The translations under genes and the position numbers were made by a program. This document shows, piece by piece, positions 48,482-63,997 of a stretch of 64,000 nt of DNA. Under the pieces are notes generated by a model. The model was not told the origin of the DNA. It did no database searches and worked only from the letters and a program-made list of their open reading frames with translations. Location of the stretch: assembly GCF_902859745.1 (NCBI RefSeq), contig NZ_CADIJW010000032.1, positions 1 to 64,000 on the forward strand, in the 5' to 3' direction. This stretch comes from Achromobacter dolens. GTDB lineage: Bacteria > Pseudomonadota > Gammaproteobacteria > Burkholderiales > Burkholderiaceae_B. The stretch's first letter is position 1, and each line of letters begins with the position of its first letter.

Positions 48482-49258
48482 CTACTCGAGGATGGCGTAG
48501 CTGATGTGCGGTTCGTAGGTGAAACGCTGGATCCGCAGCCGGTTCAGGCCCAGCTTCTCCATCACGGCCAGCGTCTCGCCGGGCCAGGTCCGATTGTTCA
48601 GCTCATCGAAGACGATGACGCCGCCCTTGGGCATGCGCGGCAGGAAATGCTCCAGGCAGATCTTGGTGGGTTCGTACAGGTCCAGGTCCAGATGCAGGAG
48701 CGACACCACGGTCTGCGGTTCGCGCGCCAGGTATTCGGGCACGCTCTGGGCGACATCCCCCTTGACCAGTTCGACCTTCTGGATGTGGCCGATGAAGCGG
48801 TTGGCGTCGAACAGCGCAATGGCGCGCTGCAAATCCGTGTAGCTGTCGGCCTGGTAGCCGTGTTCGCGGCGCTCGGTGGTCTGCACCACGGCATGGCGAT
48901 CCTGGTCGGCGATGCCGGTGAAGCCGGAAAAAGTGTCAAAGCCGACGATGCGGCGTTGCAGGTTGACCGGCTCCAGCGTGGCGCTCAGTTGGGCGAAGGT
49001 CATCAGGCCGCCGCCCCAATTGACGCCGCATTCCATGATGTCGCCCTGTACGTGCAAGGCCATCTTGAACAGTTCAGTCAAGCACAGGAAGCGCGCCAGG
49101 CTCTGGCGCGGCACGAAATTGGCGAAGTTCTCGAGTTTTTCGACGGTGCTGCCGCCCGCCGCGTCGAAGAACGCGCCCAATTCCGCGCGATAGCCCACTT
49201 CGCGGGTGGTGCTGCGGCCATCCTGGCGGAAGCGGGAGGGATCGGTGGTGTCGTTCAT
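48482..49258 (-). CDS. TylF/MycF-type O-methyltransferase
   Basis: 258 residues. This family (macrocin O-methyltransferase) methylates hydroxyls of deoxysugars, using SAM and a divalent metal. Seen here are the SAM region GDIMECGVNWGGGLMTFAQL (about 72-91), GFDTFSGFTG (about 108-117), SLLHLDLDLYEPTK with metal-binding aspartates, and GVIVFDELNN. Last gene of the operon, its ATG overlapping the dioxygenase stop (ATGA). In this setting it should add an O-methyl group to the sugar made by the upstream genes, either as nucleotide sugar or on the protein. Confidence 0.85.
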   Translation of the reverse strand: MNDTTDPSRFRQDGRSTTREVGYRAELGAFFDAAGGSTVEKLENFANFVPRQSLARFLCLTELFKMALHVQGDIMECGVNWGGGLMTFAQLSATLEPVNLQRRIVGFDTFSGFTGIADQDRHAVVQTTERREHGYQADSYTDLQRAIALFDANRFIGHIQKVELVKGDVAQSVPEYLAREPQTVVSLLHLDLDLYEPTKICLEHFLPRMPKGGVIVFDELNNRTWPGETLAVMEKLGLNRLRIQRFTYEPHISYAILE

Positions 49259-50055
49259 GCTGCGGTTCTCTGGGATTCCTGCTCGCGACGACGCTGGGCG
49301 TCATGCCCCGGGTAGTCGACATAGAAGATGTTGCTGCGATCGCCGGTAGGGTAGCGCTGGCGACGGTATTCGGCGTCGGCCAGGTCCGTGATGCGCAACT
49401 GCGTGGTCCAGCGGATCTGTTGGCCCAGGTTGGGCGTGCTGCGATGGAGCAGCAATTGCTTGAAGATGACCACGTCGCCGCGCTCGGCGGTGATGGTTTC
49501 GGGCGTTTCCGTTACGTCGTAGTCCAGGCTCAGGTCGCGCTGCAGGAACGGCACGTAGGGCGCGATCACCTTGTCGCTGATGCGCTTGAAGGGATAAAGA
49601 CCGCGCTTGTGGCTGCCGGGGATGACCTGGATGGTGCCGGACGCCAGGTTGACGTCCTGGAGCGGGACCCAGAGCGTCACCGCGTTTTCGGAGCCCAGCA
49701 GGTAGAGCGTGTCCTGATGCCAGGCGAACAGGTGGCGGGCGTCGGCCGGCTTGTCCAGGCGCATGTTGCAGCAGCCCATCAGGCCGGGGTGGGCCAGGCC
49801 CAGTTCGCGGCACAGCCGGTCCACGGCGGCACTTCCCGACAGGCGCGACAGCGCGGGCAGGTACTTGAGGCGGTCGTACAGCAGCGACTGCGTGGCCGGG
49901 TCCAGTTCGTAGCGGCCGAAATCGTGCATGTCGAATTGCGGGCCGACGATGCGACGGCCCAATTCGCCGAGTTGTTCTTCCAGCTCGTCGAGTTCGCCGT
50001 GCTTCCAGAAGTCCTTCAGGACCAGATAGCCGTCGGCTTCAAATCTTTCGCGCAT
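49255..50055 (-). CDS. Phytanoyl-CoA dioxygenase (PhyH) family oxygenase
   Basis: 266 residues. Fe(II)/2-oxoglutarate dioxygenase fold: the iron facial triad is visible as HQD (in FAWHQDTLYLLGSENAV) and the distal histidine in LLLHRSTPNLG, with the 2-oxoglutarate arginine nearby in QQIRWTTQLR. GTIQVIPGSHKRG is another PhyH mark. It may hydroxylate the sugar or an attached acyl or methyl group; the family also includes halogenases, although the intact aspartate argues against that here. Gap of 61 bases after the acyltransferase gene, overlap with the TylF gene. Confidence 0.82.
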   Translation of the reverse strand: MRERFEADGYLVLKDFWKHGELDELEEQLGELGRRIVGPQFDMHDFGRYELDPATQSLLYDRLKYLPALSRLSGSAAVDRLCRELGLAHPGLMGCCNMRLDKPADARHLFAWHQDTLYLLGSENAVTLWVPLQDVNLASGTIQVIPGSHKRGLYPFKRISDKVIAPYVPFLQRDLSLDYDVTETPETITAERGDVVIFKQLLLHRSTPNLGQQIRWTTQLRITDLADAEYRRQRYPTGDRSNIFYVDYPGHDAQRRREQESQRTAA

Positions 50056-50116
50056 ATGCGTACGCTCGTTGTTCTGTTGCAGTCTGTACGGAGGGGTTGC
50101 TGGTCGCCGGCCTGTC

Positions 50117-63036: not shown

Positions 63037-63190
63037 GGCGAAATTCCAGGGATCGCGGTGCGCGGCTGGCTGCGTGATCGCCGTGCGCACCTATTGGTGT
63101 CAGCCTGCAAGGCTAACAAGGGCGGGCGCGGCGTAATGGGATGAATAACGTCCGATTTACCTGGAATTCCGGCCGCAGTGCGCCATCGGT

Positions 63191-63997
63191 CTAGATAATC
63201 TGCGCGATCTGCCCTTCCTGGGGCAGGTGTTGCCAGGCCTGTTCGCGCAGCTTGGCGCGGATGCGCGCCGTGGCCTGCGACCGGAGCTGGCAGACGCGGG
63301 CCTCGGTCACGTTCATGATCGCGCCGATTTCCTTCAGGTTCAGGCCCTGCTCGTAGCACAGCGACAACAGCAGTTTCTCGCGGTCGGGCAGGGTGTCGAT
63401 CGCCAGGATCAGCGCCTGGCGGAAATCGCCGGCCAGCAGCGAGTCCAGCGGGTTGCCGCCGGCGGTGCCGTGATTCAGCGTGGCGGTCCAGTCGGTCTGG
63501 CCCGACGCGGTGTCGGGCTCGGTGGCGAAGTCTTCGTAGTGGACGATCTGCACGCCCTGGGCGTCGTGTAACAGCGTCTGATATTCAGCCAGCGGCATCT
63601 CCATCTGCTGCGCGATCTCGGCTTCGGAGGGTGCGCGCATCAGGCGTTGTTCGAGTTGCTGGATGGCCTGTTCGATCTTGCGTGCCTTGGCGCGCACGCT
63701 GCGCGGCAGCCAGTCCTGGCCACGCAGTTCGTCGAGCATGGCGCCGCGGATGCGGGTGGTGGCGTAGGTCTCGAACTGGGCGTCGGCGGTCTCCTGGTAG
63801 CGGCGCACCGCATCCAAGAGGCCGATCATGCCGGCCTGGATCAGGTCGTCGAGTTCGACGCTGGCCGGCAGCCGGGCGAGCAATTGCAGGGCCAGCTTCC
63901 GCACTAGCGGGGCATATTCGACCAAGCTGTCATCTGCGTGGGGCATTGCGGGAGTGTCAGGCGGTGTCCATCGTGACGCATTGTCGGTTGTTGTCAA
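63191..63997 (-). CDS. fliA: RNA polymerase sigma-28 factor FliA
   Basis: About 268 residues from a TTG at 63997; the frame stays open to the window edge, so the true start may lie beyond it, or at the ATG at 63946. Sigma region 2 is clear (LPASVELDDLIQAGMIGLLDAV and RGAMLDELRGQDWLPRSVR), as are region 3 (LMRAPSEAEIAQQMEMPLAEY) and region 4 (LPDREKLLLSLCYEQGLNLK and IMNVTEARVCQLRSQATARI). It directs transcription of late flagellar genes, matching the promoter found in front of fliC. It is upstream of the methyltransferase and fliC, all on the same strand. Confidence 0.93.
   Translation of the reverse strand: MTTTDNASRWTPPDTPAMPHADDSLVEYAPLVRKLALQLLARLPASVELDDLIQAGMIGLLDAVRRYQETADAQFETYATTRIRGAMLDELRGQDWLPRSVRAKARKIEQAIQQLEQRLMRAPSEAEIAQQMEMPLAEYQTLLHDAQGVQIVHYEDFATEPDTASGQTDWTATLNHGTAGGNPLDSLLAGDFRQALILAIDTLPDREKLLLSLCYEQGLNLKEIGAIMNVTEARVCQLRSQATARIRAKLREQAWQHLPQEGQIAQII

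Follow-up and report, generated by a model that had tools for sequence, protein, structure and literature searches.

A probable CDP-sugar variant of the flagellin glycosylation island beside fliC in Achromobacter dolens

The ten-gene operon next to fliC in the 64,000-nucleotide stretch of Achromobacter dolens DNA analysed here (hereafter, the window) most probably makes a sugar on a CDP carrier and attaches it to flagellin in O-linkage, by means of a protein in which a PKMT-like methyltransferase part is fused to TPR repeats and a GT41 glycosyltransferase (GT) part; we put the probability of this reading at roughly 0.78. The locus is a flagellin glycosylation island, an already known kind, inserted at fliC/fliA and carrying a GT41 gene together with genes for RfbF, RfbG, RfbC and a C-methyltransferase, and what is new here is its CDP-sugar variant.

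Organization of the locus and the predicted sugar

All genes discussed are encoded on the minus strand. Read in the direction of transcription, the locus runs from the flagellar sigma factor gene fliA (63191..63946; Sigma70_r2/r3/r4; ATG at 63946, with a TTG at 63997 as a possible start) through a PKMT-like methyltransferase gene and fliC (59483..61162; Flagellin_N/C), encoding a flagellin of 559 amino acids as the presumed acceptor, to the ten-gene operon, which extends from 59232 to 48482. This is the order given in a preliminary description of the window, and the enzyme families named there for the operon genes were likewise confirmed by Pfam and equivalog profile matches. Four-base overlaps do exist, but their occurrence at almost every junction was overstated, as they were found at five of the nine; the other four comprise one 16-base overlap, one pair of directly abutting genes and spacers of 19 and 61 bases.

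Terminator-like hairpins were detected between fliC and the fusion gene (59371..59392, minus strand) and 3' of the last operon gene (48427..48448, minus strand). Because of these positions, fliC and the operon are probably separate transcripts, although the scan as a whole yielded no excess of hairpins (6 in the window vs. a mean of 9.8 in shuffled sequences). A sigma-28-like site with three mismatches to the consensus precedes fliC (61273..61299, minus strand); across the window, no site with two mismatches and 11 with three were found, which is the chance level. Sigma-28 control of the operon was rejected, the only well-placed site being the one before fliC. Further, operon and window have the same G+C content (0.680 each), so the operon is not a compositional outlier, and a horizontal island judged by composition was unsupported. 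A single-protein scan found no fusion in viral contigs, and none of the 30 plasmid records matching the fusion covered more than 80% of the query.

The fusion gene (55831..59232) is followed by the genes for glucose-1-phosphate cytidylyltransferase (RfbF, 55064..55834; TIGR02623, 474 bits, cut-off 300) and CDP-glucose 4,6-dehydratase (RfbG, 54009..55079; TIGR02622, 470 bits, cut-off 278), so that for both CDP-glucose formation and 4,6-dehydration the equivalog model exceeds its cut-off. Next comes an NDP-4-keto-6-deoxyhexose 3,5-epimerase of the RfbC/RmlC type (53455..54012; PF00908), with RmlC relatives in the PDB and a TIGR01221 score of 151.6 bits, slightly below the equivalog cut-off of 155.75. 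The sugar 3-C-methyltransferase (52214..53458; Methyltransf_13/14) matches the D-mycarose 3-C-methyltransferase 4rv9 with an E-value of 1.4e-71 and has the YHEH motif in common with it; the 3-C-methylation step is thus present as judged by homology only. Further along lie an SDR reductase/epimerase that is probably the 4-ketoreductase (51393..52217; PF01370, weak PDB relatives) and an RMNT_CmcI-type O-methyltransferase, a candidate sugar 2-O-methyltransferase (50637..51392; PF04989, E 5.3e-91; NF045824 at 85.8 bits, below the cut-off of 400). The operon closes with a hexapeptide O-acyltransferase (50117..50617; PF00132), a PhyH-type oxygenase (49255..50055; PF05721, weak PDB relatives) and a TylF-type sugar O-methyltransferase (48482..49258; PF05711), related to the TDP-rhamnose 3'-O-methyltransferase CalS11 (E 1.4e-45).

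In the predicted pathway, RfbF would activate glucose-1-phosphate with CTP and RfbG would dehydrate CDP-glucose to CDP-4-keto-6-deoxyglucose, which would then undergo RfbC-type epimerization, C-methylation at C-3, reduction at C-4 and CmcI-type O-methylation. The product would be a CDP-3-C-methyl-6-deoxyhexose with one O-methyl group, most simply CDP-vinelose or an isomer, and a vinelose-like flagellin sugar is our leading prediction; the acyltransferase, the PhyH oxygenase and the TylF methyltransferase may decorate it further. CDP-vinelose comes from Azotobacter vinelandii. To our knowledge, this nucleotide sugar has been known for decades with neither genes nor a purpose assigned to it.

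Co-occurrence of the fusion, the sugar genes and flagellin

Of the 31 loci retrieved by similarity to the fusion, 30 have flagellin within the fetched DNA, at most 310 bases away in 21 of these 30 and as far as 7.0 kb away in the others. Within Achromobacter, it lay in the stretch of 18 of the 19 fusion-bearing genomes (17 of 18 relatives plus the window), the exception being genome G001 (locus L057), with no flagellin within the 20 kb fetched. The preliminary description had assigned the operon to flagellin from adjacency in one genome, and the same gene set was to be looked for beside fliC, as opposed to O-antigen genes, in relatives. On the fliC side, the relatives agree with that assignment, which is now backed beyond adjacency in a single genome; the preliminary interpretation as a whole is supported in part. 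The best PDB match of the window FliC is 7sqd, an Achromobacter filament; a term search of the accessible text on a 3.7 Å Achromobacter filament structure returned no reported glycan.

RfbF above the cut-off was found, in one copy each, in exactly those 19 of 43 Achromobacter genomes that have the full-length fusion, and was absent from the other 24. The two genes abut in 18 of the 19 genomes and are about 5.6 kb apart in G001. The probability of identical sets by chance would be about 1e-12 under independence of the genomes, an assumption that does not hold here. In these genomes, then, CDP-glucose synthesis is confined to carriers of this GT41 protein.

Three CDP-sugar cassettes, all built on RfbF and RfbG, stand behind this one fusion family: type A, in 10 genomes; type B, with an aminotransferase, in four; and type C, with RfbH (746 bits in one locus, L053, vs. 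a cut-off of 423), in four, while G001 is close to type B. PhyH and TylF were found in only six of the 10 type A loci. The cargo therefore varies among relatives, in cassette type as well as in the absence of the full-length fusion from 24 of 43 genomes.

Similar loci were also found outside the genus. Homologues of all nine sugar genes of the window (44–80% identity) stand beside fliC and a TPR-GT41 gene in locus L160, whose genome is almost surely that of A. vinelandii, judging from its family and its V-nitrogenase; its GT41 protein shares only 31–32% identity with the fusion, is without a PKMT-like part and carries Lys in place of the Arg described below. The O/OP parents of the A. vinelandii laboratory strain are flagellated (PMC4465626). 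In Pseudomonas xionganensis (locus L140), the sugar set, with a GT41 gene before rfbF, lies near fliC, between what we take to be flgK-flgL on one side and fliC-fliD-fliS-fleQ on the other, all but fliC being labelled from their first residues.

Alternatively, the sugar genes might belong to LPS or some other surface polymer, their place near fliC being fortuitous. The rfb names do derive from O-antigen work and the set is widespread: among the matches listed, rfbF is near the C-methyltransferase gene in 72 of 80 named loci, only 13 of the 80 have flagellin nearby, and the four-gene set of rfbF, rfbG, rfbC and C-methyltransferase also occurs at many sites lacking it. We consider this explanation very improbable, given that RfbF never occurs without the fusion in the genus, that flagellin accompanies it as stated above, and that, among the matches listed, the set, GT41 and flagellin recur together in Acidovorax, Curvibacter, Rhodoferax, Pseudomonas and Azotobacter-type loci.

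The two parts of the fusion protein

By Pfam, the fusion comprises a PKMT-like part (residues ~20–470), TPR families (~590–740) and a GT41 catalytic region (~740–1133; PF13844 in two stretches, E 1.3e-43). Its PDB matches include SPINDLY (7y4i, E 7.2e-91) and PKMT1 (5dnk, E 8.3e-30). In the proposed mechanism, the PKMT-like and TPR parts would hold flagellin and the GT41 part would use the CDP-sugar, which would be transferred in the cytoplasm to Ser/Thr of FliC that has yet to be exported.

The window fusion has Arg953 rather than Lys at the position corresponding to Lys842 of OGT. As TtOGT, a GT41-type protein of known structure (5djs), has Met at this place, Lys842 is not strictly GT41-defining. 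Among the 31 fusion-similar loci, all 24 with Arg have rfbF and rfbG, whereas none of the seven with Lys has rfbG. The idea that Arg strictly marks a CDP donor was nevertheless dropped, because eight of the 19 GT41 proteins in the named loci selected by C-methyltransferase (among the matches listed), as well as the Azotobacter-type GT41, have Lys although rfbF and rfbG lie nearby. One locus (L112) has Arg, yet neither rfbF nor rfbG in the fetched stretch. The Arg signature is thus neither required nor sufficient.

Covariation was analyzed in a set of 14 loci (10 type A and four type B), without the four loci of type C and without G001. Residues 781–1133 of the fusion group by cassette (exact p 1/1001), whereas residues 20–700 do not (p 0.34–0.53). 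GT distance correlated with that of rfbG with a partial r of 0.50 (p 0.0005) when fliA, rfbF and the methyltransferase (MT) part were held, and of 0.24 (p 0.05; 0.20, p 0.09 with 18 loci) when the MT part was not. Against the FliC centre, partial Mantel values were 0.65 for the MT part and 0.68 for the GT part (both p 0.0005); with the other half held, they were 0.32 (p 0.066) and 0.40 (p 0.004), respectively. In the 18-locus set, the values were 0.71 (MT) and 0.45 (GT). Only the sugar side separates the two halves clearly. It is because the GT segment groups by cassette and residues 20–700 do not that we see the fusion as two-part, apparently an acceptor module coupled to a CDP-sugar transferase that can be exchanged. 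That the N-terminal half is what recognizes the acceptor is an inference, as the two halves covary equally with FliC.

The donors of characterized GT41 enzymes are, as far as is known, UDP-GlcNAc, UDP-Glc or GDP-fucose, which favours a scheme where the fusion adds a common UDP-sugar to flagellin and an unlinked glycosyltransferase adds the CDP-sugar as an outer residue. As no second glycosyltransferase was found in the operon by Pfam, this scheme needs one elsewhere. It is also at odds with the grouping of the catalytic segment, and not of the N-terminal part, with the sugar cassette, with the confinement of RfbF to fusion-bearing genomes of the genus, and with the nucleotide-binding motifs of the fusion group, which differ from those of OGT. 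We rate it as quite improbable and favour direct transfer of the CDP-sugar by the fusion.

The preliminary description had the island combine glycosylation with methylation, and the fusion might do both by itself, its PKMT-like domain methylating lysines of flagellin and its GT41 part glycosylating the same protein. Besides matching PKMT1, its N-terminal part matches the stand-alone PKMT of the window over residues 23–449; 20 of 24 Arg-type fusions, that of the window among them, preserve the AdoMet-binding Asp, the window fusion also retains the glycine-rich motif I, and Lys-type fusions are still PKMT-like (His in four of six, Trp in five of six). Against this, the Trp of PGW is found in none of the 24 Arg-type fusions vs. 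17 of 17 stand-alone PKMTs, several fusions show an eroded motif I and a separate, intact-looking PKMT gene already adjoins fliC. The AdoMet-critical His, which corresponds to His146 of RpPKMT1 (PMC11784438), is kept in three of 24 Arg-type fusions vs. 16 of 16 stand-alone PKMTs, and is replaced by Thr in the window. The PKMT-like domain is probably a docking module and no longer a methyltransferase, and we regard dual modification by the fusion as unlikely.

Methylation thus appears doubtful for the fusion and possible for the separate gene (61441..63036; PF10119/PF13649), a candidate flagellin lysine methyltransferase. Its product matches Rickettsia PKMT1 (5dnk) over residues 10–475 (E 6.3e-74), retains both the AdoMet-critical Asp and His and looks intact; encoded between fliA and fliC, it may methylate flagellin lysines. 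The gene lay 163–361 bases from fliC in all 18 fetched loci where it was found, nine of these being stretches chosen around PKMT matches, with four more matching genomes left out. The number of FliC lysines followed no clear pattern with PKMT presence by eye.

A broader reading, which we hold tentatively and at somewhat under even odds, is that a GT41 clade uses CDP-deoxysugars through a two-part, recombining enzyme, with a dead lysine methyltransferase and TPR repeats reading the host flagellin and a GT half travelling with the cassette, and that the cassette of the window makes CDP-vinelose, with the flagellar filament as its destination in both Achromobacter and Azotobacter. If so, GT41, the O-GlcNAc transferase family, would include enzymes for CDP-deoxysugars, and a flagellin glycosyltransferase would be seen to swap its sugar while its N-terminal half stays in place. 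Donor halves that are naturally paired with different sugars would make GT41 donor specificity directly testable, an old nucleotide sugar would gain candidate genes and a destination, and the fusion would probably exemplify a methyltransferase fold that persists as a docking module.

Relation to known systems

The enzyme set of the window fits a 6-deoxy-3-C-methyl-2-O-methyl-hexose on CDP, as in CDP-vinelose, a sequence-based match from which configuration is not readable, whereas PhyH, TylF and the acyltransferase exceed what vinelose itself needs. As in OGT, SPINDLY and TtOGT, TPR repeats precede a GT41 catalytic region in the fusion; unlike OGT, the window group has Arg for Lys842, a shorter loop around His901 and G[TV]T for HTT, and, unlike all three, its donor is predicted to be CDP-linked, from co-occurrence and covariation.

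The stand-alone PKMT is homologous to the outer-membrane PKMTs of Rickettsia and Acinetobacter (KmtA), with Asp and His kept, although the known targets of these are OmpB and AtaA, not flagellin (PMC11784438). Flagellin lysine methylation would be the same outcome as with Salmonella FliB, which, in the text available, is a [4Fe-4S] enzyme (PMC8598068), whereas the window gene is PKMT-like. Caulobacter FlmG is likewise described as a modular cytoplasmic flagellin glycosyltransferase, but belongs to a pseudaminic acid pathway, and the words GT41, methyltransferase and CDP were not met in the main text as available (PMC7591256).

The preliminary description knew of no system with this gene set. 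This holds for the C-methylated CDP-sugar set beside flagellin, of which a search of open-licence literature, mostly at the level of listings, found no example; it does not hold for the island type. In Enterobacteriaceae, according to the text accessible, GT41 enzymes with fused methyltransferase domains are encoded in the fliC–fliA interval, and CDP-4-keto-6-deoxyglucose genes occur in one island type (De Maayer and Cowan 2016, PMC4875605). Those islands differ in that GlcNAc-type GT41 donors are suggested, with wider specificity allowed; in the available text, the term 'C-methyl' does not occur, and the results treat neither a PKMT-like or degenerate domain nor donor/acceptor modularity. The window operon, moreover, is placed 3' of fliC, and its genome does not belong to the Enterobacteriaceae. 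As far as that source goes, the likeness extends to the fliC/fliA insert, the sugar genes, a GT41 nearly always with a fused methyltransferase, O-methyl and acyl decoration, and variation between relatives (PMC4875605).

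Organization of the island and its insertion site

On the minus strand of the window, fliA is followed by a stand-alone protein lysine methyltransferase-like gene (PKMT, 61441-63036), fliC and, at 59232 to 48482, a series of ten genes, which opens with the fusion (55831..59232) of a PKMT-like domain (MT), TPRs and a GT41 catalytic region (GT). The enzyme labels assigned from sequence alone in the preliminary description concurred with our family searches; the four-base overlaps that it had placed at almost every junction were found at only five of nine. Two assignments were firm, glucose-1-phosphate cytidylyltransferase (RfbF) and CDP-glucose 4,6-dehydratase (RfbG), each above the NCBIfam equivalog cut-off. 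The nearest solved structures were D-mycarose 3-C-methyltransferase for the C-methyltransferase (E 1.4e-71) and the TDP-rhamnose 3'-O-methyltransferase CalS11 for the TylF-type gene (E 1.4e-45). Hairpins with T-rich tails lie 3' of fliC and 3' of the ten-gene operon. FliC aligned across all 559 residues with 7sqd, an Achromobacter filament structure according to PMC8931119, which makes Achromobacter the likely genus. Downstream of the operon, the gene at 47484-48353 had no Pfam match; it varies (57-79% identity) and follows the island in several relatives.

With the fusion as query, 43 genomes from the genus were searched along with 268 from the family, and 40 stretches were fetched: 31 via similarity to the fusion (L040-L070) and nine around PKMT matches in fusion-less genomes (L071-L079). 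Among the 31, the fused MT domain was present in all save L068, and flagellin lay within the stretch in all save L057, from genome G001. Fusion and flagellin were at most 310 bases apart in 21 of these 30 loci, and up to 7.0 kb apart in the remainder. The fetched stretches share the core fliA-(PKMT)-fliC-fusion-rfbF-rfbG with variable cargo; in four genomes (L053-L056), the fusion is oriented opposite to a shorter fliC. The window lpdA (43254-45026) was matched on the fliC side in all nine fusion-less stretches, and the island is therefore located between fliC and lpdA. In these nine genomes, chosen by their PKMT matches and devoid of the glycosylation operon, the PKMT-like gene adjoins fliC, in some on the opposite strand, which makes it a separate trait.

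Sugar cassettes accompanying the fusion

RfbF scored above cut-off in 19/43 genomes of the genus, as a single copy in each, and the full-length fusion occurred in exactly those 19, being absent from the other 24. The two genes abut or overlap in 18/19; in G001 they lie ~5.6 kb apart on opposite strands. Three cargo types, all built on RfbF and RfbG, were distinguished among the fusion-bearing genomes of the genus. Cassette A, that of the window, was found in ten, with PhyH and TylF in six of them. Cassette B (four genomes: L045, L046, L048 and L052) carries a C-methyltransferase of 56-57% identity and an aminotransferase; in L045 it also includes WbqC, methyltransferase, ATP-grasp and phosphoesterase genes, a content that suggests an amino-acid-like group on the sugar. 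A B-like set is found on the opposite strand in G001. Cassette C (four genomes, L053-L056) carries RfbH, the 3-dehydrase of CDP-3,6-dideoxyhexoses, which in L053 scored 746 bits (cut-off 423), the other three copies being 96-99% identical. Two relatives from another genus (L058, L059) have cassette A minus PhyH and TylF. At L045:1800-6884, WbqC-like, ATP-grasp and metallophosphoesterase-type genes lie next to those for the aminotransferase and C-methyltransferase.

At the place of OGT Lys842, 24 of the 31 fusion-similarity loci have arginine, which is Arg953 of the window fusion. In these 24 the loop is shorter, the motif reads LDCFPHN[SA]G[TV]T, and rfbF and rfbG were present in every case. 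The other seven have lysine; none carries rfbG, and one (L065) gave a weak rfbF-type match. Arginine as a condition was dropped, since lysine occurs in eight (and arginine in 11) of 19 extra GT41 sequences from loci chosen via the C-methyltransferase, a set of 20 from which a double-counted open frame of L104 had been removed.

Named genomes were also scanned with an alignment of the C-methyltransferase, and 80 loci were kept of 593 relatives. Among these 80 loci listed of 593, with some stretches cut by contig ends, gene counts taken from the listing were 72 for rfbF, 17 for GT41, 13 for flagellin and ten for GT41 plus flagellin, and neither the PKMT-like domain of the fusion nor PKMT was matched at E 1e-10. 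In L140 (Pseudomonas xionganensis), a GT41 gene precedes rfbF and the set lies inside an apparent flgL-fliC interval. Judging from these counts and this placement, the sugar genes form a cassette of general use, frequently though not invariably linked to flagellin.

Further arrangements were observed. L093 (a Sulfuritalea MAG) has three tandem GT41 genes ahead of rfbF-rfbG-rfbC-C-methyltransferase (493-7443). In L081, L085, L086, L089, L091 and L100 (Acidovorax, Curvibacter and similar), a Lys-type GT41 lies on the strand opposite to the CDP-sugar genes, with flagellin pieces on both strands in four of the six. L136 (Pseudomonas sp. ICMP 561) has the CDP-sugar set and fliC, with GT41 replaced by large open frames that start like GT2-type glycosyltransferases, as labeled from their first residues only.

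Proposed modular build of the fusion

In the stand-alone PKMTs (17 gene-called proteins; L072 and L077 matched but were not gene-called), Asp102 (RpPKMT1 numbering) was conserved in 15/15 proteins with that column, His146 in 16/16 and the Trp of PGW in 17/17. The corresponding numbers were 20, 3 and 0 in the 24 aligned Arg-type fusions (window included; L068, where the domain is absent, left out) and 5, 4 and 5 in the six Lys-type fusions, L066 having been excluded because of its length. Asp and His are critical for AdoMet binding (PMC11784438), and were assigned to alignment columns by our own counting. The PKMT-like domain of the window fusion is probably inactive.

Fusion distances were analyzed by segment in 14 loci, ten of type A (window included) and four of type B. 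Residues 781-900, 901-1000 and 1001-1133 each split A from B at the lowest p that the exact test allows (one label placement among 1001), residues 701-780 were intermediate (p 0.027) and no A/B grouping was detected in residues 20-300, 301-560 and 561-700 (p 0.53, 0.34 and 0.37), all p values here and in the covariation tests below being guides only, as sequences are related, genes are linked and several segments were tested. In partial Mantel tests, GT covaried with rfbG when fliA, rfbF and MT were held (r 0.50, p 0.0005), as compared to r 0.24 (p 0.05) without MT held, and MT vs. rfbG gave r -0.48 given fliA, rfbF and GT. The two analyses agree and point to a catalytic half that groups with the sugar genes. 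Sliding identity shifted most clearly in L044/L048 (A/B), where it falls from around residue 720, and in L046/L052 (both B), where it rises from ~770; the shift was blurred in other pairs. Window and L046 share 99% identity in fliA, 91% in PKMT and 87% in fliC, yet only 46% in rfbG and 55% in the C-methyltransferase.

Covariation with the FliC centre was 0.65 for MT and 0.68 for GT in 14 loci, and 0.71 and 0.45 in 18 loci; with the other half held (14 loci), it was 0.32 (p 0.066) and 0.40 (p 0.004), respectively. Since both halves covary with it, we can only infer that the non-catalytic, N-terminal half reads the flagellin.

A predicted vinelose link and known flagellin glycosylation islands

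The C-methyltransferase was matched at E 1e-100 in 70/398 Pseudomonadaceae genomes. In genome G691, which we took for Azotobacter vinelandii, VnfD was above cut-off (1016 bits) and more nitrogenase alpha-chain matches were read as NifD and AnfD. Its locus, L160, contains fliC and a 1257-residue TPR-GT41 and, on the opposite strand, counterparts of the window genes rfbF (80% identity), rfbG (65%), rfbC (68%), C-methyltransferase (73%), acyltransferase (65%), SDR (44%), CmcI type (55%), PhyH (71%) and TylF type (76%), the acyltransferase position being the sole difference in sugar-gene order. G652, from the same genus, also has VnfD; its locus, L161, carries rfbF, rfbG, rfbC, a gene of CmcI type and that for the C-methyltransferase. 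The stretch also contains GT41 and flagellin, and gave no match to PhyH or TylF. CDP-vinelose (CDP-6-deoxy-3-C-methyl-2-O-methyl-L-talose) comes from A. vinelandii strain O. The steps required for a vinelose-type sugar are RfbF, RfbG, RfbC, the C-methyltransferase, SDR (a probable 4-ketoreductase) and CmcI. Strains O and OP are flagellated, according to PMC4465626.

Flagellin glycosylation islands in the fliC-fliA interval have been described in 307 of 2000 Enterobacteriaceae, with 11 GT41 types, nearly all bearing a fused methyltransferase domain, and with CDP-4-keto-6-deoxyglucose genes in four strains (PMC4875605). We found no name for the glycosyltransferase of those four strains in the results section of that paper, and the term 'C-methyl' does not occur in its text. 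Among the open-licence papers listed by our literature searches, no other on a flagellin GT41 using CDP-sugars appeared. We put forward three predictions here, on the donor class, on the modular build and on the vinelose link. Flagellin glycosylation islands as such are already known from the Enterobacteriaceae, and it is the CDP-sugar version that is therefore counted as new.
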